A DNA stretch of 64,000 nt from positions 1 to 64,000 of the forward strand of contig VWRR01000006.1 in NCBI GenBank assembly GCA_013995675.1. Reading direction: 5' to 3'. The DNA is from Cyanidiococcus yangmingshanensis. Its lineage: Eukaryota; Rhodophyta; Bangiophyceae; Cyanidiales; Cyanidiaceae. The notes under the pieces were generated by a model that saw only the letters and a list, made by a program, of their open reading frames with translations, had not been told where the DNA came from and searched no databases. This document shows positions 22,396 to 63,196 of this stretch, one piece after another. How positions within the stretch are numbered: the first letter of the stretch is position 1; each line of letters opens with the position of its first letter. Made by a program: the position numbers and the translations under genes.

Positions 22396-24935
22396 ATGAA
22401 TCGAGAACGGGTGCCAACATCACGCCTGCGCCCGCCGACCCCAGTAATTACCTCCTTAGAAGGTGTCGGTGGTCTGCTGCTACCGACCGGCGCCACAGGG
22501 GCTTCGTCCGCGGAGCGTGAGAACTGCGCTCCTGCAAACACAAAGGAAAATCACGGCGTGACCGTTGAGCAACGTAGGGCAGAAGCCAAGACGCCTCCGG
22601 TGCGACCCGGAACAAAGATAGCGGACCTTACAACGGAAACGGCGGTAACCAGGACCCAGAATCAGTCTTCAAATGATCCGCGTTTCCCTCCACCGAGTCT
22701 ACCAAACATGTTTGCCTCAGAGCAAGCAAGTTCGTCGCAGCTCTCCACATTCATGGAGGAGACACGACGACGCATGGAAGAACAGGAGCGGCGGCTGCAC
22801 GCCATGATTCGTCTACAGCAGCAACAAGTGGCTGGTGCCAGCGCAGTAACAGGTTATGGTCGCAGTCAGGGGGCAACCGCTGCTGAACTGGAAGCGCTCC
22901 ACAACATGATCTCCTCGCAAAAGCATCTGATTGATTCTCTTCAACTGGAGAAGGCGCAAATGGTGAATGCAGTGCAGACCGAAAGGCTCGCAAAGCAAAT
23001 GGTAGAGCGCGAAGTGGCCGAACTGAAGAACTGTCTGCAAGAGACCGAGCGGCGGACACGCCAGCTAGAGAAAGCGCTTGAGGAGGCTCACTCCCGCCAT
23101 AATCAGCTGAGTGAAGAGGAAGTGACAAAGTTGCGCGCCCTCGAGCGAGACTGTGTTGAGCTTGAGCAAGCTCTTGCTGCTGAGAAACGCCAAAAACAGC
23201 GAGACGCTGAAGAGAAAGAAGCCGAAATAGCCCGCGTTCGGCGCCAATTGGAAGAGGAGGCACAGGAAAGCATACGCCGAGCAGTCCAGAGGGAACGGTC
23301 GAGTTTGGATGACGCTCGCTTGGAGGATAGAAAACCTTCGCAATCGGTTAGCTCACACGGAATCCGATGCCAGTGCCCTACGCGACCGGGTTCGCCACCT
23401 GGAGACAACTCTGCGCGAGACGGAGAGCCGTCTCGTCCAGTTCGAACAGAAGTATACCCACTTGGAAAGTGATCTCATGGCAGTGCGCAGCGAGTTGCGC
23501 GTCGCCGAAGAGGCGAAGTGCTCACTCGAGCGGTTGCTAGAGCGTGCTCGGGAAGATAACCAAGCGCTTCGTTTGGGATGTGAGAGCCTTGAGACCACTC
23601 TCCAAACAATGCGTGCAGAGAAATGCGCGCTGGAGACCAAAATAGGCTCTCATGAGGAACGCTTTCAACAGAATGGAAACGAAATCATGGAGCTTCCGTG
23701 CTCTGCTCGAAAGTCGCGAGCAGACCATCCGTGAACTTGAGGAGCAAGCGCGTGAAGATGAGCGGGTGCGTCGAGAGCTCCACAACATGGTCCAGGAATT
23801 GAAGGGCAATATTCGTGTATTTTGTCGGATTCGCCCGCTTTTGCCAGAGGAGCGCCAGCCTACTACCGAGAACCTGTTCCAACCAGTCGCTCGCTCTTGT
23901 GGACGAGGCCTCGAGGTATACGCACCTGTCGATACGAAGAAGGGTAGACCTCGGAACGACCGACCGCCTTTTGGGGCAGACAGTGCGCCAGCCTCAAGCG
24001 CGAGTGAGCGACCCAAATGGGTTTTCCAGTTTGATCGGGTCTTTGATGCCGTATCGACTCAAAAACAAGTTTTCGAAGAGATTTCGCAGCTCGTTCAGAG
24101 CGCCCTCGATGGGTACAAAGTATGTATCTTTGCATATGGACAAACCGGTAGCGGCAAAACGTTCACCATGATCGGCGATCATCAAAACCCCGGTATGATT
24201 CCGCTTTCTGTGCGTCAAGTCTTTGCGCATGCGGCGAAACTATCCGAGCAAGGTTACACATTCTCGTTCGAGGCCTGTTTCCTAGAAATTTATAACGAGC
24301 ATATTCGCGACCTTTTGGCAAAAGAGAGTGTCGCTGCTGCCGACTCGACCGAACCGAACAAATTTGCCATCAAGGTCGACCGAGCTACTGGCAGTACCTA
24401 CGTAAGCGACGTACGGATGGTTAGCGTACATGAACCCGCCGACGTGGAGCGACTGTTGACGATCAGCGCGCGGAACCGTATGACAGCGAGCACGCAGATG
24501 AATGAGCGCTCCTCGCGATCCCATTCCGTCTTTCGTCTCTATATTCGGGGCGAGAACCACGAAATGCAACAGAAGATACATGGTCTCTTGAACTTGATCG
24601 ATCTTGCGGGTAGTGAGCGGCTTGCACGGAGCGGCAGCGAAGGCGAGCGCCTCCGAGAGACGCAGCATATCAACAAGTCGTTGAGTGCTCTTGGAGACGT
24701 TATCGCCGCCCTCGCTAACAAGGAAAAGCACGTACCGTTCCGCAACAGCAAACTCACTTACCTGCTTCAGGACTCACTCGGTGGTGACTCAAAGACGCTC
24801 ATGTTCGTGAACATAAGTCCGACTTTGGACAGCTTCCCGGAATCACTCTGCAGTTTACGTTTTGCGGCCAAGGTGAACGCGTGCGACATTGGTACAGCCA
24901 GACGCAACCAGCGAGTCTCTTTCCAAGACATCTAG
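22396..24935 (+). CDS. Kinesin-14 (C-terminal motor), split over three frames
   Basis: About 845 residues if read through two apparent +1 shifts. The first ATG is 22396. Segment 1 (to about 23330) has a Ser/Pro-rich head and a long coiled coil with Glu/Arg/Leu heptads. Segment 2 (about 23310-23695) continues the coil in the next frame. Segment 3 (about 23690-24935) has the kinesin-14 neck ELKGNIRVFCRIRP, then the motor: P-loop GQTGSGKT (about 24138-24161), switch I NERSSRSHS, switch II LIDLAGSER and HINKSLSALGDVI. A motor at the C-terminus with this neck marks minus-end-directed kinesin-14 (KIFC/ATK type), used in spindle focusing. Shift 1 falls near 23310-23350 by an AAAA run, shift 2 near 23690-23700. 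Coil and neck register continue across both, so the gene is probably functional and the shifts are probably sequence errors. Confidence 0.9.
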
Positions 24936-25221
24936 AAGAGAGCAAACCTGGAGAGCCGAACATAAACGGTTGTTGACCCAGTCCAACACACTCGACTCGA
25001 GGTCAACTGTTTCGGGCGCATTGCTGCCGGCACGGCCGGAATCTCCTCGGGGCGGTCTCGTGGTCGCAGGGCTGCTGACCACCGACTGGGCTGTATCGCG
25101 GACGCTCTGTACCGACCCATACTCATCAACTTTTGGACAGAGTTTGTGACCAAATTGATCGTCCAACGGTGTACGGGCGTTTGGTTTGTTGTCGGGTGGC
25201 TGACCGACGAACTCGAGCCCA

Positions 25222-26679
25222 ATGGCAGCGCTCCCAAAAGTGGCCCAAGTTGGCGCTCGCTTCAAGGAAGAACGCCCACCGCGGAAGCAACCATCACTCC
25301 GGAACCGGCTTCGAGCGCTTGAACGCCTCGTGCGTTGGCGGAACCTAGCAGAACCAGCACTTCTGGAAAAGAGGCGGGAACTTGAGCGCCTTCGTAGAGT
25401 GTATGAAAAGAAGCGACGCAATGCAGAAAAAGCGGCGATCACCCGCAAGTACCTGCCTCTTCGCAAGATGGAGGAACGCAGGATCCTTCGCAGACTAGAC
25501 CGACTGCGTAGCGCTCGATTCGAGGATCCTCAGGCTCAGGAAGATGAAGTTCGCAGCCTTGAGCGCGATCTGGTATACGTACGCTATTTTCCCGACGGAG
25601 TCAAGTACGTGGCGCTCTTTCCCAAAAGCGGACACACCAGCCGCGCCAAAAAACTCATAGAACGGTATCGTCGTCGGATTGAGCGCGCTCATGGCGAGCA
25701 GATGACCATGAAAACGCCCGAACATCCTGTGGAAGATGCCGATGAACTGGACGAGGACACGGAGCCGGTACCGAACCGACCAGTTTCCGTCGTGCATGCT
25801 CATCAAAGACGAGATCGCGTCCACGCTGAGGCCGTGCATCAAAAACGAAATGGCAAGGCGTCTAGCCTCCGTGCTGAGGACGAATCGGCCGCTGGGGACA
25901 TGAATCGCCCGGCATCGAGTTTAGCGCCAGCTATGTATACGCGGACGCGACAACAGCAGAAGGTACCTGCTGCCAACGCAGCCAGTCCAGTGCGGTTGCG
26001 TCAGGCGCCATCTCCCCGCTGGCCATGTCCGCCCGGGAAAGATACCATTGGCCTTGCCGAGCTGAATCAGTCTTCGGTGTATCCGGCAGGGCATCGAAAG
26101 CAGACACCCGTTTCGAATCGAAGCGACGAGCATCGCGCGCGGCAACGAGGGCCGTCACCTGATCCGCTCATCGAGCCAGACGAAGACGAATCCAATCCGA
26201 CGCGTTCGCCTTTGCCAACGCACGACGATGATGACGAGGATGCGCTAGATCGTCACATCTACATTGCCAGACTTCAGCTGCCCAGGGCGCAAGCACAAGG
26301 CGTATCCGAAGCGCGTCGATCGCGGGGTCGCGGTCGACAACGATTGATCTGCGCAGCCACAAAGGAAGCGTCTGCAACCTCGGAGACGGCCGCGAGTTTG
26401 ATCCGAATAGACTCAACTGAGGCCTGGTTGCACGCGCCTCTAACAGAATTCGACCGCATCAGAGAGATACATTTGAAGGATCACCCAAGCATGCAGCGCA
26501 GTGCAAAGGCCCCAGTTCGGCAAGCGCCGCTGATCCCCAACACATGGACGCTGCATCGAAAGCCCGATACACCCGACTCTGACAACTCGCGCGATACTCG
26601 CCCGCCCAGGAACCAACCTCTAGCAGCCCAGCTGAAAGCGACCTTTTCCGGTTCGTTCATGTTGTGGTGTCCAACTTGA
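25222..26679 (+). CDS. Efg1-like rRNA-processing protein
   Basis: 485 residues from an ATG 286 bases after the kinesin stop. Residues about 20-150 are a highly basic helical domain: LRNRLRALERLVRW, a KKRRNAEKAAITRKYLPLRKMEERRILRRL stretch given here in two parts by its ends, then LVYVRYFPDGVKYVALFP. That order, a helical pair followed by a YVxYFPxxxKYxxLFP block, is typical of EFG1, a nucleolar protein of the small-subunit processome that works in 18S rRNA maturation. The remaining 330 residues are disordered, rich in Arg, Pro, Asp and Glu, with an acidic DDDDEDALD patch, and are much longer than the tail in yeast. The family call rests on the N-terminal domain only. Confidence 0.65.
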   Translation: MAALPKVAQVGARFKEERPPRKQPSLRNRLRALERLVRWRNLAEPALLEKRRELERLRRVYEKKRRNAEKAAITRKYLPLRKMEERRILRRLDRLRSARFEDPQAQEDEVRSLERDLVYVRYFPDGVKYVALFPKSGHTSRAKKLIERYRRRIERAHGEQMTMKTPEHPVEDADELDEDTEPVPNRPVSVVHAHQRRDRVHAEAVHQKRNGKASSLRAEDESAAGDMNRPASSLAPAMYTRTRQQQKVPAANAASPVRLRQAPSPRWPCPPGKDTIGLAELNQSSVYPAGHRKQTPVSNRSDEHRARQRGPSPDPLIEPDEDESNPTRSPLPTHDDDDEDALDRHIYIARLQLPRAQAQGVSEARRSRGRGRQRLICAATKEASATSETAASLIRIDSTEAWLHAPLTEFDRIREIHLKDHPSMQRSAKAPVRQAPLIPNTWTLHRKPDTPDSDNSRDTRPPRNQPLAAQLKATFSGSFMLWCPT

Positions 26680-27713
26680 ACTCCCTGTATCCGTATCCGG
26701 AACCACTCCGACCAGGCAGCGAGACAGCAGTGTCAAGCTTCACAGCCGAGCGCATCGATGGCGGTCCCGAGTCCAAGTGCAGGGCCATGCACCGCGTCCC
26801 TGCGTGTGCGCATTTGTCGGCTCGCACGCACACGCCTGCAATCGCACTGCGCGGTGATCGATGATCGCAGCGGCGCTTTCGTACGCGAATCGCGCGGAGA
26901 TTGCGCCAACGCGTACGCTGCCGAAACCTTCATGGCATCCGGCGCTGCCCCAACCACAGAAAATACAATTCGAGGTTTCAGACACAAACCATCGTTACCT
27001 GGAACAGCCGACGCAATCGCGGATAGCCTCGAATAAATCCAAACGCAGCAGCGATCTCTATCACGAACGCAACCACACCAAACCTCATCCGTAACCATGG
27101 CGGCAGGAGAACTCAAGAGAAACCATGCAGCCCCGGGCGCGTTCTGCAGCCACTCGGGCCAGACGCAACCGTCCATGGGCCCGCGGCCTGCGCGATCGCC
27201 TCGCGTGCCGCGCGCCAGCAGGCCGGGGCGCGTCCCTGAAGCATCGCTCCGCTGAATCGGCCGCCGCCATCCCGTCCGTGCAGACACGTGTCCACGCGGG
27301 AACGGTGCCCCCAGCAGTCGTCGGCCATCGCGAACGATGCGCCGTTGCCGGTGACACGTGCCTGCGCCAACATCGCGTCTCGACCATATGGACGTTCCGG
27401 GGCGCGCAGGCCACCGGTGTCCAGCACCGATGCCGTCTTGCGCGCAACGGATCGCATCGTGCGGTACGCCACCATGGTGACGCGCTGCTGCGCACAAACA
27501 CGTGCCCCAGGCGCCACTCGACAGATTCGTTCGATCGAGACCGGACAGCGACAAGCCGCCGCCACGGAAATTATCTTCTGGCATGCGGCGGATCCAATCG
27601 CCTGGCAGCGTTGCAGGCCGAAACGCGGGCCGTGACACAGACGAGTTGGCTCGACGAACGCCTCTACCAGCCGTCTGTTTCGTCTGGCCAGTGGAATAGC
27701 GCGTCCAAGCCCG

Positions 27714-27769
27714 TGTGTACGGCAAACTTTGTGTACGGCAAACTTTGTGTACGGCAAACTTTGTGTACG
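27714..27769. repeat. 3.5 tandem copies of a 16-base unit in the GATA gene promoter
   Basis: Unit TGTGTACGGCAAACTT, three exact copies at 27714, 27730 and 27746, then a half copy TGTGTACGAC at 27762. It lies 180-230 bases before the ATG of the GATA zinc-finger gene. Exact short repeats at this distance may be protein-binding sites, or a young tandem expansion. Confidence 0.85.
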
Positions 27770-27902
27770 ACTTTTTGTAAGACTTTGCAAGTGCGTTGCG
27801 TGCTCGCGATCATCAGTGTCTGTCAGTTTGTAGAGGCACGCGACCAAGCTTGGTTTGTTGGGTTGGGCGTAGCGCACGGCCAGAACGGCCACGGGGACGG
27901 CT

Positions 27903-27910
27903 TTTATAGG
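27903..27910 (+). promoter_or_regulatory. Possible TATA element of the GATA gene
   Basis: TTTATAGG, about 36-43 bases upstream of the ATG at 27946. Spacing is plausible for a short leader. No other support. Confidence 0.3.
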
Positions 27911-27945
27911 TTAGCGCGAAACGATACGTTTTGAACGCTGGGAAG

Positions 27946-35253: not shown

Positions 35254-35517
35254 CGTGCAATCGGTCCCGTGCAGGGATATGATTTGGTCTGGCGGCTCGG
35301 CCGACCCTTCAGGTTGGCGAGAAACTCGCGCCCAGTCTCGTTCGCTGGATGCAGCTCTGCCCGAATGGTGGTCGAGTGATTCGTGCTGGACAAAGCGCGC
35401 ACCGACAGCTCAATCGTGGCGAGCACGCGCTCGGCCTGATCGAGGTCCAAAGCGGGAACCGCACTCGATACCCGACGTTGAAATCGTCAACAAAGCGACT
35501 AGAATTCGCACCAATCG

Positions 35518-37225
35518 TTATCGGGCTAAGGAGGTGTCTTCAAACTGCTGCACGAATGGCGATAGCTCCAAATCGGCATTGGCGATGACATGCTGTAGCT
35601 CCCACGGCACTCGTTCAGCGACCCAGGCATAGTGCTTTTGGATACAGCACCCTTCCCAGTCGGACAAGAGGTACGATTGCGCGGCCAACGGCGCAGTGCC
35701 GGCCTCAGCGGCGCTTGCTGGCTCTGGCGACAGAGATGCGTTGGTACGTTTCGCGCGGTCCAGTTTCTCCAACGCATCAGCAAGGTCCTCGGTCTGGACG
35801 CTACAGAGTGCGCTGTTGTTGTGGGCCGCGCGAACCCAGTCCTGTACCGATAACGCAGTAAACAAGCGATTGGTCCCATCCAAAGTGCCCTGCAGGGCTG
35901 CAGAAACTGACAAATCCCATGCTCCCTGGTCCAGCGACTCGCAGAGGATCACGGCTGCATCAAATGCATCGGTGCCGTCTTCATACGCTCCACGAATACT
36001 GTCCAGGAGACCGCGGTGAAAGAGCAGCATGGCTCGAGATGCTTGGACGACAACCTCCAAGGCTCGCTGTCCCGAGGCACGGCTTGCTTCGTCACTTGGA
36101 GCAGGAGACGGTAGCGACGCTCCTGTCAGGGACCGCTCCTGAGCGCCTAGAGTGGGTGTTGTCGCATGCGACGACCCGGTCTCTATCCCTGGAAACGATC
36201 CCACGTCAGTGACGTAGTCGTTGTTGTTGTTGTTGTTGCTGCTGCTGCTGCTGCCCCTCGGGAGCGTCACCACTGGGATTTCGCGCTGCTCTACAACTCG
36301 TGGCGAGGTGTTCGGCTGTCCCATTTCGCTGCTAGCCAGAGTCTGTAAACGTTTGAGGATCTGCTCGCACAGCTGCAGCGTGGCCTCTGCGTATTCCAAC
36401 GCCTGCAAGGAGAGGAATGCGCGCATGATTAGGAATAAAAGGTCAAGGAATTTGCCTCGTTTGAATCAGATCAAACACGGCAAGCGGCGAGGAGAGAGGT
36501 CGGTTGCCATCCTCGCATCTGTGCCGACTGCGACACCATCTCTTTTGCCAAGCAAGCACTACAGGCTGCCTGCTGAAAGAAACCTGTTCGCACCATGAAC
36601 GATATCAAGTAGTCTAGAGAAGCCAATGACTTTGTATGCGGGGAGCGCGCTCTATGGCAACCATGAGCAGCACCAGGTAGCATTGCCTCCAGGCGTCTTG
36701 CGCGACCAGGCAGAGGGGCAGGCTGGTGCGACTTTCCCCAAAGGATGTCAACCACTGTTCCAGCTCAGCGAGTCTGAACCGAGAACCTTTCGGAGTGACC
36801 AACAGAGCATCCCCGACGGCCAAAAGACACTCGGGACGAGCAGCGTTGGTAGACTCCAGCTCGCGATGGATGGTCAGCTCGTGAACAAATGACTCGATTT
36901 CGTGCAGTTGCTCTAGGAGGTTGACAAAAGCAGCGCTCTTTGTCGGATGTTCAGCACATCCATCACTGCGCAGTGTCGGTGAACGCTCGTCATAGAGCAC
37001 CTGCAGACACTCTTGAACGATGCTGCTCCAGTGTGCTTTGTAGCGGGCGTCCTCTAGTCGTCGGGTCGGTTCAGCAAGCGGCGCTTCCTTCAAACTCAGT
37101 GCTTCCGCTGAGGGTGTCTCGATCATGCTGGTCAAGATATGGGGCGCCTCTTGAGCAGTGTATGAGGAGATAGAGTCGTCTCTTGACAAGGGGCTCTTTT
37201 CGGAGGACATGCCCCCAGCGTTCAT
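35518..37225 (-). CDS. Helical protein, possibly COG8-like, broken over frames
   Basis: Three minus-strand frames follow without a gap: 37225-36614 (203 codons from an ATG), part of 36755-36471, and 36426-35518 (302 codons). Each has gene-like composition. The middle one has a SLDYLISFMVRTGFFQQAA helix, which resembles the conserved LELPxLMDTCVRNGYYEEA region of COG8/Dor1, a subunit of the conserved oligomeric Golgi tethering complex. Upstream, LEQLHEIESFVHEL may match its N-terminal helices. The last part has a poly-Ser/poly-Asn run from a CTG/GTT triplet repeat (36214-36252) and helices such as ALEYAEATLQLCEQILKRL. Two shifts and one in-frame stop near 36473 are needed to read it as one protein. 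It could be one gene with sequence errors, a pseudogene, or two genes. The name is a weak guess. Confidence 0.4.
36214..36252. repeat. Triplet repeat GTT/GCT in a coding region
   Basis: GTTGTTGTTGTTGTTG followed by CTGCTGCTGCTGCTG on the plus strand. It encodes poly-Ser then poly-Asn in the minus-strand helical protein. Confidence 0.8.
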
Positions 37226-38262: not shown

Positions 38263-40660
38263 ATGGAGACGGACACGACACGACCGCCCACCAGCACCAG
38301 TCCACTTGACGATACATCAGTCATGGAAGTGAATGCTAGCGACATCAAGACTCGGAGCACAGAACTGACGGCGTGGTTCCACTTTGTACGGGGAGTTTGG
38401 CACCGAACCCCAGCTGAAGCGGCCAGCTACCTGGGATCGCTGGTGATGCAAGGCCTCGAGACCGCCTCCTGGTACGCGAGTGGCAGCTATCGGATCGAGC
38501 GAGTAGCCTGCTTTGCGTACAACTGTTTCACGAACGAGGACATTGTGGTCGAAGCACAGTTTCCAGGTTGTACCAGCGTGAGACGACTTGGTGGCCCACG
38601 ACCATTCGGTTTTCGTGATCTCGACAAAGATCCGAACAGTGCCTCGATCGAGCCGCCCGAGAAACTTGATCAAACCCAATGGGCGCAGTTGAGTGTTAGC
38701 TCTGTCTTGCGCTCTATTGAAGCAGCTGGTGAACGACCGCTCTACCCAGCACTCAAGGTTGTGGCGGCTGTTGATGCCAACTGGCGAGGAGAGGCCCTCT
38801 TCCTGGACGCAGCAGCATGTACGTTGAGTCAATGGAAAATGGCTGGTTCGCGTTTTACAGAACATGCTCAAGCGACTGCTGCTAGTTCGATTGTTGCGGA
38901 GGGTATCTGGCAGTATTTCTCGCGTTACGCTCGCCATCACAAAGCATACACGTTTTTTTCAGACCTGGTGGGAAAAAGTGGGGAGCGAGCCCTGATCCTC
39001 TACGTTGCTCGGGCATTGGCGGCACAGCAGCAGCACGAAAAGGCTCGCAGTCTTGCTTGCTGAGGCGCTGAACTCTTCGAAGGAGTTGGAACCTCTCCAG
39101 GTCGTTGATCGACAGCGTCTGGCCCTTGCACTGGCCGAATACGAGGTGCTCAGTGGACACCTCACGGAGGCCATGGATCGGATACAATTCGATGTACTGC
39201 CGAGACGCTCTCGTGCCCAAAACAGTCAAGAGGATGAGCAGAGTGCGTTCGCAGCACCGCCCGTAACGAGTCAAGATGCGACCAACTCACGATCCACATC
39301 CGACGAGATCAGTCGAGTAGCTTGTTTCCTGCTCGCTCGACTCTACGCCCAGACTGGTGAGTACGAGAGTGCGCTTCGAGCCTTGAACATGGCCCATGTA
39401 GAGCCGCCACAGATGGATTGGTTTCTGCGACAAGTGACGGCACAGGATCCGATACCGAACACGAATGGCACTCCCGTCGGGAAGCGACAAGTGACCCAAC
39501 CTCGAGCAGGCTACGCGGCCGGAACCGATGTTGTTCGAGTGTTGGCTCGTCGACTCGCTGAGGAACGTATCGGTGCTGGTGCTTTCGGTGAAGGTCGTGA
39601 GCGACACCATGCTGATCGCATCCTCGGGGATCTCACTGGGAGCGTCCTCACTCCAGAGGAACGAGAAGCCTATGATATCCTGGTCAAGATCGTGAGTCGG
39701 GTCGGCTGGGATGAACTCTTGCATATTCGTAGTCGCGTTTTTATCATGGAGTCTGATGTCTTGGCAAATGTGGTTGATCTAGATGAGCCCGTGTCGCCAC
39801 CAGTGATGGCGGAGACCGACCAAGGTGTCCAGGACCCAGCAGCAGCGAGTCATGCCGCGAACAGCCCTGAAGCGTCTGCAACGCAGGTGTCTGGCGCTTC
39901 ATCGCCAAGTTCAGCGCATGGCGAAGACAGCATCGGCCCGGTAGCGACAGCTTTCGCTGACAAGGGCGCTACAGGACCGAACGCTGAGACTGGAGCAGCA
40001 CTATCCCTGGCTGACACCCGTCGCCAACTTGATCCGTCTGCACTGAGCAAGGCGCTCTGCACAGCCTGGTTGGATACACTCATTCACTGTCTGTATGAGG
40101 ACCTTCGAGCTTGGTCTATCTGGCAACATGAAGAGCGAACACTCTTCGAGTCAACGCACTCTGCAGAGGCGACCGATGCCGAACGAGTAGAGGTTGCTGA
40201 CCCGACTCCCTTGGTCGCCTGTGCGCTGGTGATTCGCGAGACACGTCGTGCTGCCGTTGACTGGCTTCGTCGAGGTGAACTCGCAGAACGTCTCGGGCAC
40301 CCTGAAATGGCAGAGCGAGCTTATCGCATTTGTCTGGGTGTTGCGGAACGATCTCAGACGGCTGCGCTCACTGCTTGGTTGCGTCTCGCTGCATTACAGA
40401 CTGAGCACGGTCAAGCGGATGAGGTCGTCCAAGCGTTGGATCAAGTATGGCAGTACATGACCGAGCATGCCGACAAGAGCGATGCAACGAATGAGCGACC
40501 GATTCCGGAGATGCTCCAGGTCCTGCTCTACCAAGCGGTTGCACGATTCGGTCTGAGTGCAGTTCGCGAGGCCGTCTCCGGTCTGCGTCAACATCAGGAG
40601 CGGATGCGTTCGCTACTCCTGGATGCAGTGGCTGCGCAGGTCTCTGGTTATGATCGATGA
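38263..40660 (+). CDS. ChAPs-family (Chs5-Arf1-binding) trafficking protein, one frame shift
   Basis: About 798 residues when one apparent +1 shift near 39037-39060 is read through. Segment 1 ends HEKARSLAC-stop; segment 2 continues LLAEALNSSKELEPLQ in the next frame, which restores a TPR-like helix. An AAAA run at 39038-39041 is a likely error site. Segment 1 has features of ChAPs proteins (yeast Bch1, Bud7, Chs6, exomer cargo adaptors that bind Arf1 at the trans-Golgi): CFAYNCFTNEDIVVEAQFPG, then a WAQLSVSSVLRSIE helix and LYPALKVV. Segment 2 is TPR-rich (LLARLYAQTGEYESALRALN, AERAYRICLGVAER), with an acidic, Ala/Ser-rich insertion at about 39790-40010. The role would be export of selected cargo from the Golgi. 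The family call is moderate; a general TPR protein is the alternative. Confidence 0.6.
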
Positions 40661-41172: not shown

Positions 41173-42264
41173 TCATCTGGTATCACCAAGAGTTGTATGC
41201 CAAACCAGGAGTCTAGATACCCGGGGCTGGGTAGAAACTTCGTACTGGACCCGGTTATCAGAGCACAGTTGAAATGGATTTGGGGAAGCAGTACGATGGA
41301 TGACAGCGACTGCGCCTGTGTCAGCGTCCACGCCATCGATCCATCGTGCAAACTTCACGATCGTACAGTCACTCTGGTAAGCGGTGACTTCGGTCCCTGA
41401 TAAAGACCTAGATACTGGCAGTGCACTAGGGTCCTCGCCGTTGTACTCCGCAAGCCGATGATCCTCATCCCCGTAACGGTTCCAAGTGGCGAGATAGGCA
41501 CAAGCACAACCGACAAGTGCGCCAGCCGTAATATCCACCACATCATGGTGATGATCAATGACTCGCGAAACTGCAATCAACACTGGCCAGGACCCATGGC
41601 AACAACAGCAAGGTTAGACGAAGTGTATGGGTACCTCTGAAGCACGCCAGCATGCTTCGTGCCAAACCCGCTTGAAGCCAACGATACTGCCAATGCGTCA
41701 CTGCGCTGAATGCCAGCGCAGCGTGCCCTGATGGAATGCTTTGCGAGCCTCTCGTACTTGCCAAACATCCCCTGCACATGTTTTCATCTCATGTCCATCG
41801 AGGTAACGCTCACACACGAGGGCGAAATAGGGTCGCGGTCTGCCCACCAGCAACTTGAGGACCACCGTCGCCAGCAGTGCTACACCGTTTGCTTCCACTA
41901 CACCAGTTGCAATCCAAAGCAATACTCCAGCGTTGCTTGCACCATTCCACGAATATGAGCATCGTCTCTGCTTCGCGTGCCACGCCAGCGCTACGAGAGG
42001 AACCACGTACGCAAAAAGCAACAACACTGGCGCTGGTACAATTTCAGAACGTCTCGAGAGCTGCACGCTCGGGTCCTGCAACGATATCGGTGCAACTCGC
42101 GGAGGAATGAAACGATCAAGAAGCAGTGGTAGCCCGATGCCCAACGTGGTCACGAGCCAGCCATCAAGGGTTAGAGGAAAGCGCCTCGTCGATCGCGAGC
42201 TGGTCTCGTCCTCATCAGCGTCCAAAGAAACGATCACGCTCCGATCCAAAGCACTATCCACCAT
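41173..42264 (-). CDS. PAP2-type lipid phosphate phosphatase, split over frames
   Basis: About 363 residues from the ATG at 42264 when two shifts are read through. All three catalytic motifs of the PAP2 / LPP superfamily are present, in order but in different frames: KLLVGRPRPYF (near residue 138, about 41823-41855), RKSIPSGHAALAF with the PSGH core (about 41705-41745), and SRVIDHHHDVVD (about 41530-41570). Family enzymes remove phosphate from phosphatidic acid or related lipids inside membranes. Hydrophobic segments such as WLVTTLGIGLPLLL and VLLLFAYVVPLVAL support a six-helix membrane protein. Shift 1 lies at an AAA run (41740-41742) and looks like one base lost; shift 2, near 41575-41590, looks like one base gained. 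The last 100 residues are a polar tail of unknown role. Confidence 0.8.
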
Positions 42265-42810
42265 ACGAATCGTTCGGTACTATCCCTTCCGACTCAAAGG
42301 TCCTCGTAAATAGCTAGAGAAAAAGGCGAACGTAGGTGGAAAATAAAAAAGAACACGAGGTTGCACCAGCTGGGCTCCTCCAGTTCATTGTTGATGAGCC
42401 CGCGAACGAGCCATCGGCCGGCACAAAGCCATTCGAAGCCACGAGTCGTTCGCGGTGACGGTTACGCTCATCGACACGGTGACCGGGTTGAATCGTATTC
42501 TTCGAGGAAGAAGGTGCTTCGATATCGTCAGTTTGGGTGTTCGGTCTGGAACCAGCCACTGAAGAAAGCGAGCACGCGCCTTGGTCAGACAGTAGACGCG
42601 AGCGTTTGGCAACGTGCACCTGGACGAGTTGTTGCAGGGCCGACAACCGCAGCCAAAGTCCCCCACAAACGCTTTCTGATAGAATCGGCACACTCGCCAA
42701 ACGAGTGCGTGCATGGTCTGGAGTACACCAAAGGACTGCGCAAGGATAAGCGCTGCTCAGAGGCAGTCTCCCGGGGCCGCAGGCTCTGCGGACGCTGAAC
42801 GGGCCAGCGA
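42265..42810. other. Divergent promoter region of PAP2 and BTB genes
   Basis: 546 bases between two start codons on opposite strands. The overlapping frames of up to 171 codons have no motif. Both promoters should lie here. Confidence 0.45.
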
Positions 42811-46031: not shown

Positions 46032-46134
46032 TCAGAGGATGCGTTGGACTCGTCGTCTCCGTACACGAGAGGAAGCTGCACATGGAGGTGACGCTGGCTC
46101 CTCGGCAGAGGTCGACCGAGTACCTCCTTGGTCG

Positions 46135-46167
<33 letters not shown>

Positions 46168-49100
46168 TCATGATCGTGGTTGTCGTCGTCGTCGTCATCT
46201 TCACTAGCACGGTGATTCGGGGGGGCTGGCTCCCGCCCCTGTCCTTGTCGTGGTTGTTGTCGTCGACAATGGGGACGCCCGGACGGTTGCTGGTGCAACA
46301 CCAATTGTCGCATGACGGTACGAGCTCGGGCGCGAGCACTTTTGCGAGCGCTCGCCGGTGTTCGCAACGTCGATACGCTTCGGATATGCGTCGCTGGTGT
46401 TGCACCAGCAACGTGCTCATCATTCGCCAGCGACGCTGTTGCAGTGGCAGTCGACGCATGCGGCGAGCCATCGACGCCTTCCAGAGGCGACATAGCGTTA
46501 GGCGACACGAGGGACGTGCACGACAACTGGGCGAGTCGCTGCTCCAACTCGTCGACGAGTGCTCGCAGCTCCTGACTCCTGGCCGCTCTCCGCGCCCGAA
46601 TGAGTACTTGGCGGAAACAATCCGCAATCACCGAGTCATGTAACCGATTCACATAACATTTGTGAAGCTCGCTCAAGCGCCTGAGGCAGCGTTCACTTGT
46701 ACAGCGTAGAAGCGGAATACAGAGGGCCAAACGCCGTGCAGTTTGGGCATCGGGGGCCCCTCTCAATCGATAACAGAATCGTTCAAGCAGACTCTCCGTC
46801 AAACGTTCGTGTTGGACAAACGACAGGAGAAACTGCATCATCTCGCGGAACGAGTCATCGGTCAGTTGACGACGATGAAAAGCACCGGGACTCGACAGAC
46901 TGCAGACCAGATCAGGGAGTAGGAGTACCAACGTCTGGGCTGCACTGACGCGTTTGCGTTGCATCTCGGTGAAGAGCGTTCGAGCGAGACGGGCCACCGC
47001 GGCATCGGGGTCCTTGAGGCACAGCACCAAGTCTGCCCAGTGTCCCTTGATTTTGACCATTTCATTCAGGATGAGATGCGTTAGGACCATGAGCATGTAG
47101 CGTCGTACTCGAGCATCCTGATCTCGATGCAGGACCGCATAAAGTTGATCGGTCCATGGCTCGAGTCGGTTCGGAAACCGAGCAACTAGATCACCGAGCG
47201 CAACTACAAGGTTCAAACGCACAAGCGCGCTCTGTGCCTGCTGCAGCGCAGTGAACAGAACTCGCAGGTAGCGCTCGGCGATGGACTCGTGCAGACACAC
47301 GAGTCGGCCAAGCGCGAGTGCAGCAGCAGCAGCAACGGTGTTTGGGCGACGAGTCCCCGCTGACGTGTTCGCTTGTGTGTCCGTCGTCGATGCACCATCC
47401 GAGCACGGCATTATCAATGCCTCTGTCGCCGATGCACAGTCTAACAGGAGTACATGCGCTGCGAGTGGCGCCAACGCAGAGAGCGGTGCATCAGGTGCAG
47501 CCAGTTCGGCTTCGAGGGCACTACAGACCTGCTCGAAGCGACTCTCCAGGTACTGGAAACGCTCTGGCTCGGTTGCTGATACGAGCGCGTCGACGTCAGC
47601 AGCAGCTTCAGCCTGTTGTTTTCGGGGCGGTCTTGTACGCTTCGGCGCTGCATCGTCCAGCTGCAGGGTTGCGATCGCATCCGAGAGCGTTGCAACCTTC
47701 GCATTCGCGGATGATTCGGATCGGAGACATTGGCGAACCTGACTGGTCGCAAAACGCAGTTCATGGAGCGCAAAGGCGCTCACCAGGGTGAAGAGACGAC
47801 CCAACCAGCTGCGAGAGCAGCGCAACGAGGAAGCGCTTGGCGGAGTCTTGTCCTCGTTTCCCCATGCATGCCTGTGCTTTTCGACGAGTCTCATGAGCGT
47901 TCTGCGGAGACTCTGGTGAGGATCTCGACTAGCATGAAAGAGCGTTGCCACTGCAGCCTGCGCCGCGACTGGCCAATACGCGCTGGTCGAGTCATCCAAG
48001 AGCAGGGCTTCGAGTCGGTCCACCACGAGGCAATCATCTGGAGCGAGCTGCTGGGCACCTAGACCTGCGACAGAGCGCAGCACACGCCCAACGAGCCGTA
48101 ACGAGGTCGTTGAATGCGCGCTCTCGGAGGATATCAAGCTGGCGCTTGGTGAGCGGTTGGACGCAAGCCACACACTGGATGAGGAAAGCGCACCCGCGAG
48201 TCAGTTCACGGCTTTGATCCAGGAATGCGTTCATCGAGAACATCCCACCAGCACTGAAGCACTGAGGGAGCGACGCGCTCTCGCCGAACGAGTTCAGGTA
48301 GGACGGTCTCGAGACAGACTAGTTCCCCGACACTGGCATGAGCGACGAGTGCGACGAGCGCTTGCGTAATGGTGAGCACGCCCTGTGTCTGCAGCGCTTG
48401 TGCAGTCGTTTCTGCATCGGTTGCATGTTTCGCAGTGCGCAGCACACGTTCCAGTGGCAAGACCAAGTACATGGTATGAAAGGATTCGAGCGCAGCATCG
48501 CGAATACTGGCCTCTCGCGACAGTCCAAGACGCAGAATCTGTCCTCGGTGCGTCCACCAACGCCGCTGGCACCTGAAACTGGTAGGCCGTACACAGCGCA
48601 CTGATAGCCTCGAGCACGTCGCTGGCTTGTCGCGAGCGACACAGACTGCAGATGACTGGGATCGCCTCTTGGACAGATTGTGCAAAGGTTGCCGCAAGAC
48701 CGTAGAACGATGCACCTTCCTGTGCAATATCTGGCGTCAACGACGAGGATAGCGCGAGGGACGTCGTTCTGCGTCTGTAAACACTGTTCTTGACGCAGTG
48801 TAAACAAGCCCTGTTCCAAGTGGGCAGCGAAAGGATTCAAACGAATGCAGGTGGTGAAGAGTTGGAGCGCTGCTCGTCGAACATGGAGGGACTTGTCCTG
48901 CAGTCGCGAGACGATATGTGATTCTAACGTCGGATACAATGCGACGGGAACGCACCGAGCCTGCACAAGACGATGCCACACTTGCAGCGTGCGAGAACGG
49001 GCCAATGAATGCACATCTTCCAGTCTTTTCAGTAGCAATTGAATGAGACGCTCCTGCAATGCCTTTGACTCGTCCTGGGCTGGCGTGGACGCACACGCCC

Positions 49101-50658
49101 CTTCTTGAGCAGTCCCAGTGATATACTGGATGACTTGTCCAAAAGCGTGCACGAGCGCGTTACGGACAAGGTACGCTTCCCCGTCCAAGTGGGGAATCCA
49201 CAACGGCAAGTACGGAATCAAACATGACGGCACTCGATCTGCGAACTCGGTGAGGAATCGGGCCACATTCCGAGCACAGACATGATCGCGAGCAAGCTCT
49301 GTCAACGGTATTTGAGCGACTTGAGTGATCAGATCACGAATGCATCCACAGCGCCCGTCATTACTCGCCGACAATGGCATGACAGCAGGAAGCACCTCTG
49401 ATCGATGGTCGGAAACCTCATCGTCATTCGTAGGGTCGTCCAGGCCGCATGGTTGTCTCTTGTGAGCATCAGAACCCAATGCTTGAATGATATCAACGAG
49501 CACTGCTGCCACGTGCTCATGACGCTGTAAACCGTGGACTAAAATCGGACAGAGACGATTGCCTTGACCGTATCTCGACAGACAGTCCGTGATGAGCTCT
49601 ACCAGGAGTGCTCGTGCCCGCTCCTGTCGACAGACCGAGCGGGACTCTAGGAGCGCACACGCCGTCCGTACGAACAGATACAAGTACGCATCCTCTGGGT
49701 GTGAACCAGAGAAAGCCAAACACAGGAGGCGCTCATCACGTAAGAGTTGCCCGAATGCATCCAGAAGATCCTCTCGTTCCGCCTCATAGACCGCCGCCCA
49801 GGGATCGCTGTTCGATAAAGCACTCGCACCAGAGATTGCACGCGACGTGGTCTCTGGCGCTTCGCACTGGTCTTCGGATGACTCTCTGTCCGATTGGTCA
49901 GAGTCCTCCACAGTCCGAGATGTCTTGGCTCGATGGGTTACTCTACGACTGCGTGCACGCGATGGGGTCTCCAGCTGGCGTCGCTGTTTACCAGTGGCCA
50001 GCGGTGGACGCTGAACTCCCGGATGGCGTGCGCTCCACCATGCACTCGACAGGGGCATGTTGGCCTCGGCAGCCTCTTCGCTCAAGTCCTGCTCCGCTGC
50101 TTGTAACCAGTGCGCAGCGACAAACGCCACCAATCGAATGGTCGAGCGCCAGCTCTCCGCTGCACGTTCCGAACAGCTGACAAGGTCGCGTTCCACCCGA
50201 GCGGCTCGATGCATGGCCGCTAGCGCCAGCATCAACCCCTTTTGCACACAGCGAAAGAGCTGCAGACGCATCGAGGCGTCGTTCAAACCGCGCCAATGAT
50301 GAATGCACCAGAGTAACGCACGCAGTTGAGTCGCTGCTCCATCGCTTACTGTGGCTTGCCACCATAACAGCGCCTCGTTTTCGTTAGAGCCGGTCAGCAG
50401 CGTCGTTCTATCCTCTTTCTCCGAAACAGTCGGCTCGGTTGGCGTCAAAATCGAACAAGGAACATTTTCAATCGCATCGCCACAGGCCAGCGCTACCGCC
50501 GAGTGCACCGATATCGAGTCGGTAAGGTCGAACGCATCCATCGAAACCATATAGCGAGCAGGAATCGACCGCGACGAGACCTGTTGACGAACAAGGTTCG
50601 GATCGACAACCACGTCTTCCCAATGAAATGGGAGCAGAAATGCCTCTAATGAAGCCAT
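46032..50658 (-). CDS. CAP-D2: Condensin complex subunit CAP-D2, several frame shifts
   Basis: About 1540 residues from the ATG at 50658 when four apparent +1 shifts in 48070-48760 are read through. The first 640 codons and the last 690 are unbroken. The protein is a HEAT-repeat condensin subunit, which helps compact mitotic chromosomes with SMC2/SMC4. The N-terminal block has FHWEDVV. The C-terminal Cnd1 core near residue 1190 has LTHLILNEMVKIKG, DLVLCLKDPDAAVARLA and LLPDLVCSLSS, matching the CAP-D2 type (KVKG, DPD, LLPD) rather than CAP-D3. Middle frames carry helices such as SVQEAIPVICSLCRS, LGLSREASIRDAALE and LVALVAHASVGELV. The C-terminus has an Asp/Gly run made by a triplet repeat (46136-46200). 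All four shifts have the same sign. Confidence 0.82.
46136..46200. repeat. Coding triplet repeat (CAC/CAT, GTC) in CAP-D2 tail
   Basis: CACCACCACCACCATCATCAT units followed by GTCGTCGTCGTC on the plus strand. On the minus strand they encode the acidic Asp-rich and Gly-rich tail of CAP-D2. Length variation between strains is likely. Confidence 0.8.
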
Positions 50659-51500: not shown

Positions 51501-54496
<2,996 letters not shown>

Positions 54497-57761: not shown

Positions 57762-58765
57762 CAGGTACCTGATCAGTCGAGCAAACAAGGTTCTGCCCAG
57801 AACTCGGAATGCTCGTATTGAGTAGCTGGACTCGAGGCACGACCCGAAGGACGCGTGCTCGAAGACGACGATGATGATGCGCGATCCTGCCTCCGACGAG
57901 CAACAGACTCGTATCATGCGTGCATCTTGGAACGAAAAGTCCCAGCCTCTATCGATTTCGTACGCTATACAGATAGAGTTCACGTACAAGAATGCGTATG
58001 AATGGGAGCATCTACTTGGTCCAAGCGCGGATTGGTATCGTTTTGAGAACGTTTCTCCTGGATATAATGCTGCGGATGATCGAGCGATGACCATCTCGAT
58101 CTCGTAAGTCGAGTCTAGGGATCGTTCTCTGCATATATAGGCATCAATCTTCATTTGTGCTTGACGATAAGATCTTATTCGGGTGGCTGGTTGACAAGCA
58201 TCACTCAATTCAGGTCAGTGATCGAGTCTGTACTGTCATCGCTGCGGGGGAGCGTTCCGCGGCCAGCAGCGCGTGCGGATCGCCAGCCCCGACGAGGAGG
58301 ACGCCAACCACACGGTTTCGGAGGCGCTGCTCCCAGGTCGGGACTGGACAAGGCTGTTCGAACATAGGTCTAGGTTTCCCTTCAAGACGGGTTCGAGAGT
58401 GTGTCAGGAGTGACGCTTTACGGTCGTTTGGGTTTCGTCGACGAACTTGGGAGTAAACTCAGCCGACAGACTGAGAAGCAGTGACTCTCTGCAACACGGC
58501 TTCTCGAACAAGCCATAAGGACGATCTAGAGAAGGTCGAAAATCGCAGTCCTTCGCCCTGAATCGACGGAGAGAAAAACTTGAAGTTGTGCCGCTGTTTG
58601 ACGTTTCTTGTAGTGCGCGAAGGACGAACCGTTTACAGTTTGCCTCCTAGAGAAACGAGGGTCTGAACCTGGACTCGACACAGGTAGGGTTTCACAGCGC
58701 TCTGGTTACCAACGTCCGCAAGCACGATTCGCAACCTAGCTTGTGACAACAGCAATCACTGTTTC
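57762..58765. other. Intergenic region between divergent genes
   Basis: 1.0 kb between the oxidoreductase (minus) and the prenyltransferase (plus). TATATAGG near 58134 is TATA-like on the plus strand. No gene seen. Confidence 0.45.
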
Positions 58766-60043
58766 ATGGCGCTGAAACGTGACCGAGTGCACCGCAGGGG
58801 CGCTCTCGAGACCCCTAGTCGACGCACCAGCTCGACCCGCTTCCCAGGTAGGCTTGTGTCGTTTGTAGATACCGTCATTTGGTCAACGTCGGGTGGGGGC
58901 AGCCAAGCTACCAGCTCGACCTGGTTGCGATTCGATGGAGGCCAGTGTTCATGGAGAGAGACAAATCGCACCAGATGCTGCTGGCACTGGTCCCTGGCAA
59001 GCCCAACCGGAGACACGAGATCTCGACCGACGCCAACACTGAACAACGCTATGGAACGTGCACCGCAAAACTGCCGATGGTGTTCGGATACCTGCCAAAC
59101 GATCGCTCGATACCGCTTACGGCGCTCGGTTCTCCAACTCTGCCAGAAGACAGAGAAACCTGACCGAACCTGGACGGCCGCTTGTTTGCCTCATCGCATA
59201 GTCAGCACGGAGGGCCAGTCCATGCACGTCGCTGTTCCGGATGTGTCGAGCCCCGCTGGTAAGACGACAAACCTGGCCCATGAACGTACATTGCCTGCCC
59301 ATATCGGGGTTATTATGGATGGTAACGGACGCTGGGGAATGCGCGCTCGAGGCAGTCGCTCAGCTGGTCATGAACAGGGACTCCAGGCACTACAGGCCTT
59401 GATCGAGGATTGCCTCCAGTGGCGCATTCCTTTCCTCACGGTGTTTGCGTTCAGTACCGAGAATTGGCGACGACCATCATCGGAGGTAACGTACCTCTTT
59501 TCGCTCTTTGATCGCGTCGTTCAGGTGGAGTTGGAAAAGTGGCACGCCCGTGGCGTACGCCTGATCTTCATAGGAGAACGCAGCGCTCTGCCGGAACCCC
59601 TACGCCGACGCATGAACGAGGCCGAGGAGCGCACTGCTACCAATCAGACGCTCTGTCTACAGATCGCCCTCAATTATAGTGGACGTCAGGACATTGTGCG
59701 TGCAGCAAGGAGCCTAGCGCTGGATGTTAAGGCCGGTATCCTAGATCCGAGGCGCATTGATGAAAAGGTTTTTGCCACGTATCTCGCAGAGTGCTGGGGT
59801 ATTGACGTCCCTGATCCGGACCTTATCATTCGGACTGGTGGTGAACAACGTCTGAGTAATTTTATGCTCTGGCAGGCAGCGTACACGGAGATTTACGTCA
59901 CCGATACGCTATGGCCAGAATTTACATCAACAGACTTTCTCTATGCTTTGGATGCTTTTCACGAGCGAAGACGTCGGTTCGGCGGTGTGTCTGGCCATGG
60001 CTCAAGCGCGAGCCCCACAGTTTCTGATTGCTCAAGCCGATAA
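58766..60043 (+). CDS. Cis-prenyltransferase (undecaprenyl / dehydrodolichyl diphosphate synthase type)
   Basis: 425 residues from the ATG at 58766. The catalytic domain begins near residue 175 with HIGVIMDGNGRWG (catalytic Asp), followed by FAFSTENWRRP, LQIALNYSGRQDI, and RTGGEQRLSNFMLWQAAYTE. These are the five conserved regions of enzymes that add isopentenyl units in cis to make dolichol or related polyprenols. Family members have about 250-290 residues, so a start at the in-frame ATG 59222 (273 residues) would give a normal length. The upstream 152 codons have no stop and are Ser/Thr/Arg-rich; they could be a plastid transit peptide with a spacer, or untranslated. Location (ER or plastid) cannot be told. 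Confidence 0.88.
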   Translation: MALKRDRVHRRGALETPSRRTSSTRFPGRLVSFVDTVIWSTSGGGSQATSSTWLRFDGGQCSWRETNRTRCCWHWSLASPTGDTRSRPTPTLNNAMERAPQNCRWCSDTCQTIARYRLRRSVLQLCQKTEKPDRTWTAACLPHRIVSTEGQSMHVAVPDVSSPAGKTTNLAHERTLPAHIGVIMDGNGRWGMRARGSRSAGHEQGLQALQALIEDCLQWRIPFLTVFAFSTENWRRPSSEVTYLFSLFDRVVQVELEKWHARGVRLIFIGERSALPEPLRRRMNEAEERTATNQTLCLQIALNYSGRQDIVRAARSLALDVKAGILDPRRIDEKVFATYLAECWGIDVPDPDLIIRTGGEQRLSNFMLWQAAYTEIYVTDTLWPEFTSTDFLYALDAFHERRRRFGGVSGHGSSASPTVSDCSSR

Positions 60044-60555
60044 GGCCCACTTTTCATTCGGATAGGGCGCAAATAGTTTCCTGGAAACGGCATGGGATCG
60101 ATCGACGTCACCGATAACGCGCTCGTGCGAGACGCATGGCAGTGCTCGAAAGAGAAATGCCGTTTGGCTTGTTCGCGGTCGCATCAGCGATTCTAAGCGA
60201 CCCATGATCCCTGGTGATCGGTGCGCTCGCGGTGGCATTTTCACCGATCATTTGGAACCAGTCTGAGAAAACCTCGCAAACAGGCAAAATAACGATCCGT
60301 GAATCCTATCCTCGTCCAGCACATGCATGCCCGACAGGGAAACGAGCGTATAGGAGGTTGCTGGGGATCTGCAGGAGATGGCTTGGCTTACCTGGTTGCC
60401 GAGTGCGAGGTTGCATCGACGCCTATTTCCCCTATTCAGGTTCATGTGGTGACTTGCAGCTCTTGGCTAGAATCCGAGTGTTCCATCGCATCGGCTCAGG
60501 TGCCGCGCGAGTCGCTTTCAAAACACTGGGGACAGCGACCTCGTTCGCATTCGCG
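60044..60555. other. Convergent intergenic gap, nothing seen
   Basis: 512 bases between the stops of the prenyltransferase and FKBP genes, with no supported frame. Confidence 0.45.
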
Positions 60556-61464
60556 TCACTGACTACTGGCCGACCCCGACAGAGGCGAACCGTTGATCAC
60601 CACTTTATCGTTGTAGTAACCGCGATCTTTCGGGTCTTTCATGACTTTTTTCAATTCCAAATCAAACACCAGCAATTCTCCCTGTTCAAGCCTTTTCGCC
60701 AATGCCTGCCGAACCCACGTCGCAGCTGGAATCGGTCCCAAGTCCCCATGCACATAAGCCAATCGAGGAGGCACAAGAATCCTTCGACGTCCATGTTCTC
60801 GCATGGTATGAATCGCCTCCTCAATTCCTTGGATCGTTCGACCATTCCCGTGCTTGATCAAATAGCCCCGACCGTGGCTCGAATCGATACGCCGCAACCG
60901 CAAAGCGTTGTCACCGCCAACAGAACCTGATCTTGGAGGTCCCTTCGGTCTCGGTACCGTGTACAACACAAAGTCGACGACACAGAGGTCACCCCAGTCG
61001 GGGGAGGGTCCTTCGCCTTCGGCCACGTCAAAATAGCGCAGCCCGGTGGCGGTCACCACGCCAGCGGAAACATCTGGCGACTGCTCGGCAGCATCAACAA
61101 CCATCTCCTGAGACCAGGTCCTCGCTTGCACAAGGACACTGATCATGGCGCCAGAGAGCAGACGAAGAAACGCGCGTCGATTTGGCTCAGCATCACGCCG
61201 GACGCACACTGCACGCACCCGAGACACTACACAACAACTCGCTAGGCGCCGCGCTGGTCCCCAAACCCGAACCCGAGGAACCAAGCACCCCGAACAGAAA
61301 CCTAACAATTCGCTTCCACAATGCACATAATCGTTATTCAACCTCTCCGTCCTGCTGAGAACAGCCTCAGACCTCATCCAGTCCACGCTGGTGAACCAAC
61401 ACGATCTACAGCACAACTCCTGGGAGAGTCCGGGGCAAAAACGCCGTGCCACGACTACGTCCAT
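60556..61464 (-). CDS. FKBP-type peptidyl-prolyl isomerase, probably thylakoid lumen
   Basis: 302 residues from the ATG at 61464; ATGs at 61524 and 61377 are also in frame, and the frame opens at a GTG (61563). The N-terminus is Cys/Arg-rich without acidic clusters for long stretches. It is followed by NRRAFLRLLSGAMISVLVQA, a twin-arginine motif plus hydrophobic core, as in proteins imported into the plastid and then moved into the lumen by the Tat route. The FKBP fold has GDLCVVDFVLY, a long basic loop, IQGIEEAIHTMREHGRRRILVPPRLAY and LLVFDLELKKV. Several active-site aromatic residues are changed, as in many lumenal FKBPs, which may be chaperones rather than isomerases. The divergent PHD gene starts only 135 bases away. 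Confidence 0.78.
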   Translation of the reverse strand: MDVVVARRFCPGLSQELCCRSCWFTSVDWMRSEAVLSRTERLNNDYVHCGSELLGFCSGCLVPRVRVWGPARRLASCCVVSRVRAVCVRRDAEPNRRAFLRLLSGAMISVLVQARTWSQEMVVDAAEQSPDVSAGVVTATGLRYFDVAEGEGPSPDWGDLCVVDFVLYTVPRPKGPPRSGSVGGDNALRLRRIDSSHGRGYLIKHGNGRTIQGIEEAIHTMREHGRRRILVPPRLAYVHGDLGPIPAATWVRQALAKRLEQGELLVFDLELKKVMKDPKDRGYYNDKVVINGSPLSGSASSQ

Positions 61465-61598
61465 TTGATTCCATTTTGACCGTTCTCGGGTGCGCACGTG
61501 TGACGCGTGACGCGTCCACGCCATCGCGTCCCGCGAGTCTCTGCGCGCACTGAACGCGTCCACTCCAGCAGCGTAGAACTTTATGGTTGAATCGTGTT

Positions 61599-63196
61599 AT
61601 GAGTGACGACTCTCGTACTGAAACCTCCTCTACAGAGACCGAAGAGGAAACGATTGATGACGAACCAGGTCGGCGTGGTCCTCGAGTTACCGTCGCGTTC
61701 AGCAAGACCAAAGGTTCGGTGACGGGTTTCGGAGACGCGCGAACAGGGCGATCGACGCTTTCGTCTGCTGAGCAACAAGAACCAGCAGCAGGAAAGCTTC
61801 CTCCAGCGAATCAACTGGGCGCAAAACGACGTGGTGCGAGTGCCGACAGTAACGAGTCTGAAACGGGTGCGCGAGGTAGGCGACGGCGCCGTACCGCCAC
61901 GTCACATAGAATACTGGAATCGAATAGGCGTGTGTTGGATGCCAGCGCGGACGCAACAGAAGACTGGCGCCGTCAGCGTTTGTCGTTACACTCTTTGAGC
62001 CATGGTGTTGTGATTGACCTCGAACGGGTCGTGATTCCCGAGCGTTATCAACGGTGTCGGACACCGTTGTCGAACCATGCGATTGCGGCGATCGCTCACG
62101 GCTGGGCGCCTGACGATGTCTGCTCCGTGTGCGGCCTCGGTGGCGACATTGTCTGTTGCGATGATTGTCCCCATGGGGTATCATTTGCAGTGTCTGGGTC
62201 TGCCTTCAATTCCGAGAGGTGAATGGTTCTGTCCAGCGTGTGTGCTGCGGCTGAAAGTGGAAGAGCGGATGAGACGAGAGCTCGGTCTCAGTTGGCCTCA
62301 GGCAGCGTTGGAAGGCAGCCTGCCAACAGGCTGGTCACAGGGCTGGACCAGGCCGGCGACGAATACCTCTTCCATTGGAGACGTCGGTCGAAGCGAAGGT
62401 TCTCGGGCATTGGTTTCGATGCGCTCGCGATTTCCAATGGACGCTGGCGAGGTCGTGTCCGGCAGCGATACGGTCGCACCCCAACCCGATACAATGCAAG
62501 CAACGCTGACGCCCTCACGAATCGTTCGACTCTCGAATGGGGCACCCCTTGAGCAAGCCTCTTCGAAAGGGGTCTCACTGACGGAAACTCAAGTGATGAA
62601 GCAGATGGAGGCTGTTGCGGACGACCGTCACGACCAACAACGCCAATGAAATTGTTGGCGTCGATAGAGACGCAGGCGCGAACCCAACGGCTCTACGGCC
62701 GAGTATTACAAACGAGGTTGTACGGTCTGGCCACGTGCTGCAACCAGTCAAGATGGAAACTGGCCTGCTTCCCAGGGCCGCGCACGAAGAGATGGCTTCA
62801 GCTACTCCCCGATGGGACGACGCCCGTCTACCATCCCTAACATCCCCTGCACGACCCCAGCCTCTGAACAAACCAGAAGCGTTCGGTGAACGAGCACAAA
62901 CGCTGACAACCATGGGCGCCTCATCAGCCTCTGTACCGGCAACGAATCAGCATTACGCAAGCTTGCCTCCGCCGGCAACCAGGACCCAAATCGAGCCCAT
63001 GGGTGCAGCTTGGTCGGTCTTGGGCGCAATCGCCGCCCTAAAGCTGGCCCCTGCCAAAGAGAGCCAGCTCATTCAAATGGCGTTGCAGCGAGATGAGCGC
63101 CTTGTAGGACTTTATCAGAGCTTTGGAGCGGAACGTGAACGCTTCCGAGACTATGCTCTTCTGTTGCTCGAAGACAATCCTGATCGTTCGAGATAG
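61599..63196 (+). CDS. PHD-finger protein, split over three frames
   Basis: About 531 residues from the ATG at 61599 when two apparent +1 shifts are read through. The N-terminal 170 residues are acidic then basic (RGRRRRRTA), likely disordered. A PHD zinc finger follows, cut by shift 1 at a CCCC run near 62170. The first half is CSVCGLGGDIVCCDDCP, the second, in the next frame, MGYHLQCLGLP then GEWFCPACV. Together they give the full C4-H-C3 ligand set. PHD fingers read histone H3 tails. Shift 2 lies near 62600-62650. The C-terminal part has a Ser/Pro-rich linker and a helical end (SVLGAIAALKLAPAKESQLIQ, FRDYALLLLEDN), not recognised. That family-critical residues appear on both sides suggests a working gene. 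Confidence 0.78.

Follow-up and report, generated by a model that had tools for sequence, protein, structure and literature searches.

Single-base frame breaks in conserved genes of the Cyanidiococcus yangmingshanensis genome record very probably reflect residual assembly errors

We analysed the first 64,000 bases of contig C17 (VWRR01000006.1) in the genome assembly of the red alga Cyanidiococcus yangmingshanensis, which comprises 12,072,675 bases in 20 contigs; this whole stretch (bases 1-64000) is referred to below as the window. Several of its conserved genes change reading frame by a single base, mostly with one base too many (+1) and once with one too few (-1). An earlier note on this DNA had claimed 13 such junctions in six genes, which proved a slight overcount: eleven junctions, of varying strength, are supported in five genes (two in a kinesin-14-type gene, one in a ChAPs-family gene, two in a PAP2 phosphatase, four in condensin CAP-D2 and two in a PHD-finger gene), whereas the two assigned to a COG8-like gene are not. 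The genes lie in the window as follows.

22396..24935, plus strand: kinesin-14-type gene, coiled coil followed by motor, spread over three frames, with +1 junctions near 23329 and 23698
37225-36614 and 36465-35518, minus strand: presumed 'COG8-like' gene, two open reading frames (ORFs) in different frames, placed by the gene order of the earlier note
38263..40660, plus strand: ChAPs-family gene; a single +1 junction within about 38992-39063, with 39043 as the best position
41173..42279, minus strand: PAP2 phosphatase; one -1 junction (about 41800-41735) and one +1 junction (about 41615-41557)
46032..50658, minus strand: condensin CAP-D2; four +1 junctions near 48767, 48540, 48221 and 48112
61554..63196, plus strand: PHD-finger gene; +1 junctions in a CCCC run near 62178 and near 62639

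The junctions were located with a codon-periodicity model with explicit frame changes, built from 333 kb of the genome, and were compared with family profiles. Between 22 and 64 kb the model finds eight changes, all of them +1 (23329, 23698, 39043, 48112, 48221, 48540, 48767 and 62639), and profiles or motifs add three further junctions: the split PHD finger and the -1 and +1 of the PAP2 gene. With ten +1 and one -1 among the eleven (P = 0.012), the +1 changes are in the majority, as in the earlier note, whose counts were about nine and three. Fourteen other genes touching the window read in one frame, and Pfam scans of additional window ORFs revealed no further broken family besides the PAP2 gene. 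Because the codon model mistakes adjacent or overlapping genes for frame shifts, its calls were also scored, in nats, against a model of two separate genes.

The condensin CAP-D2 gene (Cnd1 108.7 bits and Cnd1_N 35.9 bits in the profile search) carries the largest number of junctions in the window. Its margins over the two-gene model are 9.4 nats at 48112, 11.2 at 48540 and 10.2 at 48767; at 48221 the margin is 0.0 nats and the new frame carries an ATG, so that this junction depends on the read-through alignment. The upstream, middle and downstream parts of the gene are collinear with condensin subunit 1 chains in PDB: against 6qj3_A, the upstream ORF matches residues 303-446, the read-through middle 540-709 (14.9 bits, a weaker stretch) and the downstream ORF 931-1101. 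The outer matches are separated by about 492 codons in the alga and by 485 residues in the chain, and therefore no large piece of CAP-D2 is missing or added. Searched against PDB by themselves, one of the short middle ORFs gave a weak collinear match (E = 0.67, ranked behind hemoglobins) and the other gave no collinear match.

In the kinesin-14-type gene, the motor is found in ORF 23646-24932 (Pfam Kinesin, 364.9 bits) and coiled-coil matches in ORF 23231-23731; in the read-through translation, judged by eye, the coiled coil runs unbroken into the motor. Codon statistics leave both junctions undecided (0.0 nats over the two-gene model at each), because the new frame has an ATG there. The apparent continuity of coiled coil and motor thus supports the two junctions, and separate starts would be compatible with the codon statistics. 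For the ChAPs-family gene, profile positions 6-206 and 341-392 are matched in two different frames, and a frame change is preferred to two genes by 13.1 nats. The three-frame view of the PAP2 gene places K..RP, PSGH and SR..H..D, which we take to be the PAP2 phosphatase motifs, in frames 3, 2 and 3, and therefore implies one -1 and one +1; the profile matches positions 6-38 and 87-123, and neither junction was called by the codon model. Positions 1-22 of the PHD profile end where positions 22-47 begin in another frame, within the run of four C, although each partial match taken by itself is weak (10.3 and 16.4 bits). At 62639, the other junction of this gene, a frame change exceeds the two-gene model by 7.5 nats.

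The presumed COG8-like gene differs. Neither of its window ORFs has a family or structure match better than E = 0.06, and the only Dor1/COG8 match in the genome at E <= 10 lies on another contig, in one frame (C14:244354-245400). The lone match on C14 and the lack of a significant Pfam or PDB match leave the COG8 identity of the pair at 35518-37225 unsupported. What had been read as two frame shifts is probably a gene boundary or an intron, and the pair may be two genes 187 bp apart.

How often such boundaries are mistaken for frame changes was gauged with controls. When single-base changes were implanted into 23 intact genes, the codon model detected 83 of 92 (+1) and 88 of 92 (-1). On 100 kb of Escherichia coli K-12 it made 27 calls, 22 of which lie, by our reading, within about 50 bases of where one annotated same-strand gene gives way to the next; in the alga, the call at C17:92366 links an ORF with HEAT repeats to one for a PALP enzyme. 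We therefore consider a strict set, defined by a margin of 8 nats over the two-gene model and minimum segment lengths, which retains 15 of 42 algal calls (183 kb coding) versus 1 of 27 in the finished E. coli K-12 sequence (79 kb coding); dropping the length filter gives 16 and 3 calls, respectively. Even so, the call at C1:103957 survives at 14.8 nats and joins a pyrophosphatase ORF to a fructose-bisphosphatase ORF. The signs of the strict set, ten +1 and five -1 (P = 0.30), lean weakly, and by this measure the 22-64 kb region, with four calls where 1.9 would be expected, has no significant excess over the rest of the sample (P = 0.13). A regional clustering of signs along C17 in the first codon-model scan (nine +1, then eight -1, then five +1) was discarded as evidence, as the raw calls include gene boundaries and a '-1' call at C4:371641 is resolved by the kinesin profile into two closely spaced +1 changes.

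A genome-wide survey that is independent of the codon model chained per-frame profile matches of kinesin, protein kinase, SNF2, DEAD, ABC and Cpn60/TCP1 domains into 150 loci covering 110 kb. Twelve of the loci contain frame changes, 17 altogether, of which 14 are +1 and three -1 (binomial P = 0.013). These counts are lower bounds: scoring went from the best candidate downwards and covered 19 of 63 for ABC and 37 of 50 for DEAD, a selection that favours intact genes, and short leftover pieces were missed. Five of the six families contain broken loci, with none among the 19 ABC loci. Six of the changes have gaps of 256-824 bases, in keeping with the reading that some junctions are boundaries of neighbouring genes or introns, as are the errors of the codon model in E. 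coli and at C17:92366 and C1:103957, the probable nature of the COG8-like pair, and the codon statistics of the kinesin-14 junctions and of 48221. As an explanation of the junctions, however, this reading has next to no probability in our estimate: eleven survey changes in eight loci have no intron-sized gap (nine +1, two -1; P = 0.065), and the profile positions on the two sides abut, overlap or nearly abut in the PHD finger, a kinesin on C4, a kinase on C15 and CCT-alpha. Among the eleven gap-free breaks, pairs within the same gene exceed chance (P = 0.003). Frame breaks thus exist genome-wide, lean towards +1, cluster within genes and affect core genes; in the profile survey this lean is real, yet it requires no biology behind it.

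The following two core genes outside the window are among those affected.

C1:208051-209635: CCT-alpha chaperonin; junctions +1, +1 and -1; two pieces with 339 and 204 bits against the CCT-alpha model
C14:800153-800651: second Cnd1-domain gene; +1 junction between profile positions 89 and 97

CCT-alpha chains are the best PDB matches of the C1 locus, one of 11 chaperonin loci found in the genome. Both of the strongest Cnd1-domain genes are broken, namely CAP-D2 in the window and the C14 gene, which is presumably CAP-D3; the next-best Cnd1 match scores 41.5 bits. HslU, which was recognised by its third piece, has three +1 junctions within 300 bases, and both an XPD-like helicase and threonine deaminase are broken between domains. 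Core genes such as those for CCT-alpha, condensin and HslU are normally not dispensable. Breaks inside CCT-alpha, the two strongest Cnd1 genes, the XPD-like helicase and HslU, often several in one gene with the flanking sequence still conserved, therefore make it very unlikely that the junctions are true recent mutations of the sequenced clone, in decaying or dispensable genes or in a culture with a high rate of insertions and deletions (indels). In two other chaperonin genes (C18:203671-205608 and C12:503672-505457), about 300 bases break up the profile match, in frame and with a stop in one case but not in the other; these interruptions are candidate introns in an intron-poor genome.

A pair of near-identical genes on C11 bears on the same question. 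The two 3.4-kb copies of a protein-kinase gene (within C11:150557-156556 and C11:234372-240371) are 99.0% identical and differ by 33 substitutions and one gap. This gap reflects a single additional base that one copy carries, not in a homopolymer, and that splits a 1090-aa frame left intact in the sister copy. True mutation would find a favourable setting here, with a sister copy that could cover for the loss. Yet of the 32 substitutions inside the frame, 21 affect third codon positions (8 of 13 upstream of the extra base, 13 of 19 downstream), and this excess on both sides indicates that the frame was selected until very recently, or still is. C11 also holds a chaperonin gene twice with identical scores (100714-102219, minus strand; 186417-187922, plus strand), and the contig may carry a larger recent duplication.

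Programmed +1 ribosomal frameshifting on a wide scale, or removal of one base from the mRNA, would leave the printed DNA right and the proteins intact. Such a mechanism would fit the excess of +1 changes in the independent survey and in the window, the conservation of protein on both sides of the junctions, and the short-read polishing claimed for published assemblies of the genus. Programmed +1 frameshifting is expected to have a stop or a slow codon where the frame shifts, a common word, a single sense and usually one site per gene. With respect to stops, the 42 codon-model junctions precede the end of the old-frame stop by 1 to 449 bases; the distance is greater than 5 bases in 35 of them and at most 5 bases in seven, a share that may or may not exceed chance; these seven are what the mechanism would predict, the 35 are not. 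Homopolymers are not enriched at the 42 junctions (posterior run 1.74 vs 1.71, P = 0.19), a test diluted by the likely gene boundaries among them, and no shared word was seen by eye in the printed contexts, for which no statistical motif search was made. Changes of the opposite sense also occur (3 of 17 in the survey, 1 of 11 in the window), in CCT-alpha and PAP2 within the same genes as +1 changes, single genes contain three or four shifts, and the extra base on C11 is absent from one of two 99% identical paralogues. Literature searches gave no relevant title on ribosomal frameshifting in Cyanidioschyzon or on frameshift in Cyanidiales, and none of the genome papers checked for the term 'frameshift' uses it in its main text. 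The frameshifting of Euplotes and of antizyme resembles the present case in the +1 sense of most changes; it differs in that here most shifts have no stop, no slippery word was seen, several shifts occur per gene and -1 changes are found as well. The earlier note had considered genuine frame shifting worth excluding, and the evidence goes against it, to the point that we hold it to be extremely unlikely.

We infer from the printed sequence, rather than from mapped reads, that the junctions very probably stem from single-base errors, insertions for the most part, that remained in the consensus of a long-read assembly. The printed bases would then be wrong, and their presumed cause is insertion-prone raw single-molecule read errors left in poorly corrected patches. 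The genes would most likely be unbroken in the living alga, errors would extend across the whole assembly, with no fewer than one in about every 10 kb of conserved domain, and their concentration in local patches would lead to several breaks per gene, as in CAP-D2, CCT-alpha and HslU. Assembly error is expected to spread genome-wide regardless of gene function and to gather in local low-quality patches; the breaks occur in 12 of 150 loci and five of six families, and the excess of same-gene pairs agrees with patches. Together with the affected core genes, the two signs in CCT-alpha and PAP2 and the intact C11 paralogue, this supports the earlier view of assembly error as the simplest cause. 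A concentration at homopolymers was not observed; such concentration marks nanopore-type error and not raw single-molecule insertion error, and so need not accompany every kind of long-read error. Raw PacBio reads are insertion-prone, and insertions without homopolymer enrichment are closer to the raw PacBio-type error profile.

A long-read assembly with residual indel errors offers a comparison, and is said to be based on nanopore reads. As far as its account in PMC12007338 goes, scattered single-base indels fragment a sizeable share of its genes with the protein conserved on both sides, as in the alga, but they are mostly false deletions tied to homopolymers, unlike the insertions without homopolymer enrichment found here. 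This difference in sign is one of several points that weigh against assembly error. Of the published assemblies of the genus, those of Cyanidiococcus 8.1.23 F7 (PMC9812998) and NIES-4659 Ha1 (PMC13353863), each with 20 chromosomes, are described as polished with Illumina and Pilon, and that of CcyaKS1 as based on HiFi (PMC13200283). One break per 10 kb of conserved domain should not occur in a well-polished assembly. Moreover, the C11 copy with the extra base could carry a true mutation, and the seven junctions close to an old-frame stop remain to be counted on this side. Either this record is less corrected, or polishing failed in patches, or some of the breaks are real.

Further observations concern the contig end and repeats. 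The window starts with repeats of CCCCCCATT, the complement of the AATGGGGGG repeat, which we take to be the C. merolae telomere. Published assemblies of Cyanidiococcus yangmingshanensis are given as 12.0 and 12.1 Mb in 20 contigs, and a table in PMC13353863 lists AATGGGGGGG for two Cyanidium strains. A subtelomeric block at 3001-11800 is common to many chromosome ends, over 8.8 kb at 88% (C3) and 85% (C14); at nine more ends the match extends over about 4.8 kb with 90-92%. On C5, a 0.68-kb repeat occurs twice, about 32 kb apart and 98.4% identical (L025:6058-6731 and L028:8203-8878); nine substitutions separate the copies, as does a 2-base gap next to a run of T.

Apart from its warning about the genome record, the finding is an ordinary one. 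We consider it barely conceivable that the extra bases are real and routinely tolerated or removed in hundreds of nuclear genes, through +1 frameshifting without a fixed slippery word or through a base-removing RNA step. If they were real, the nuclear genes of this red alga would be read in a novel way, of which we know no description from any alga. If the junctions are errors, as we very much expect, gene counts, gene losses and pseudogenes derived from this record would be incorrect for an appreciable fraction of genes, among them such central ones as CCT-alpha and condensin.

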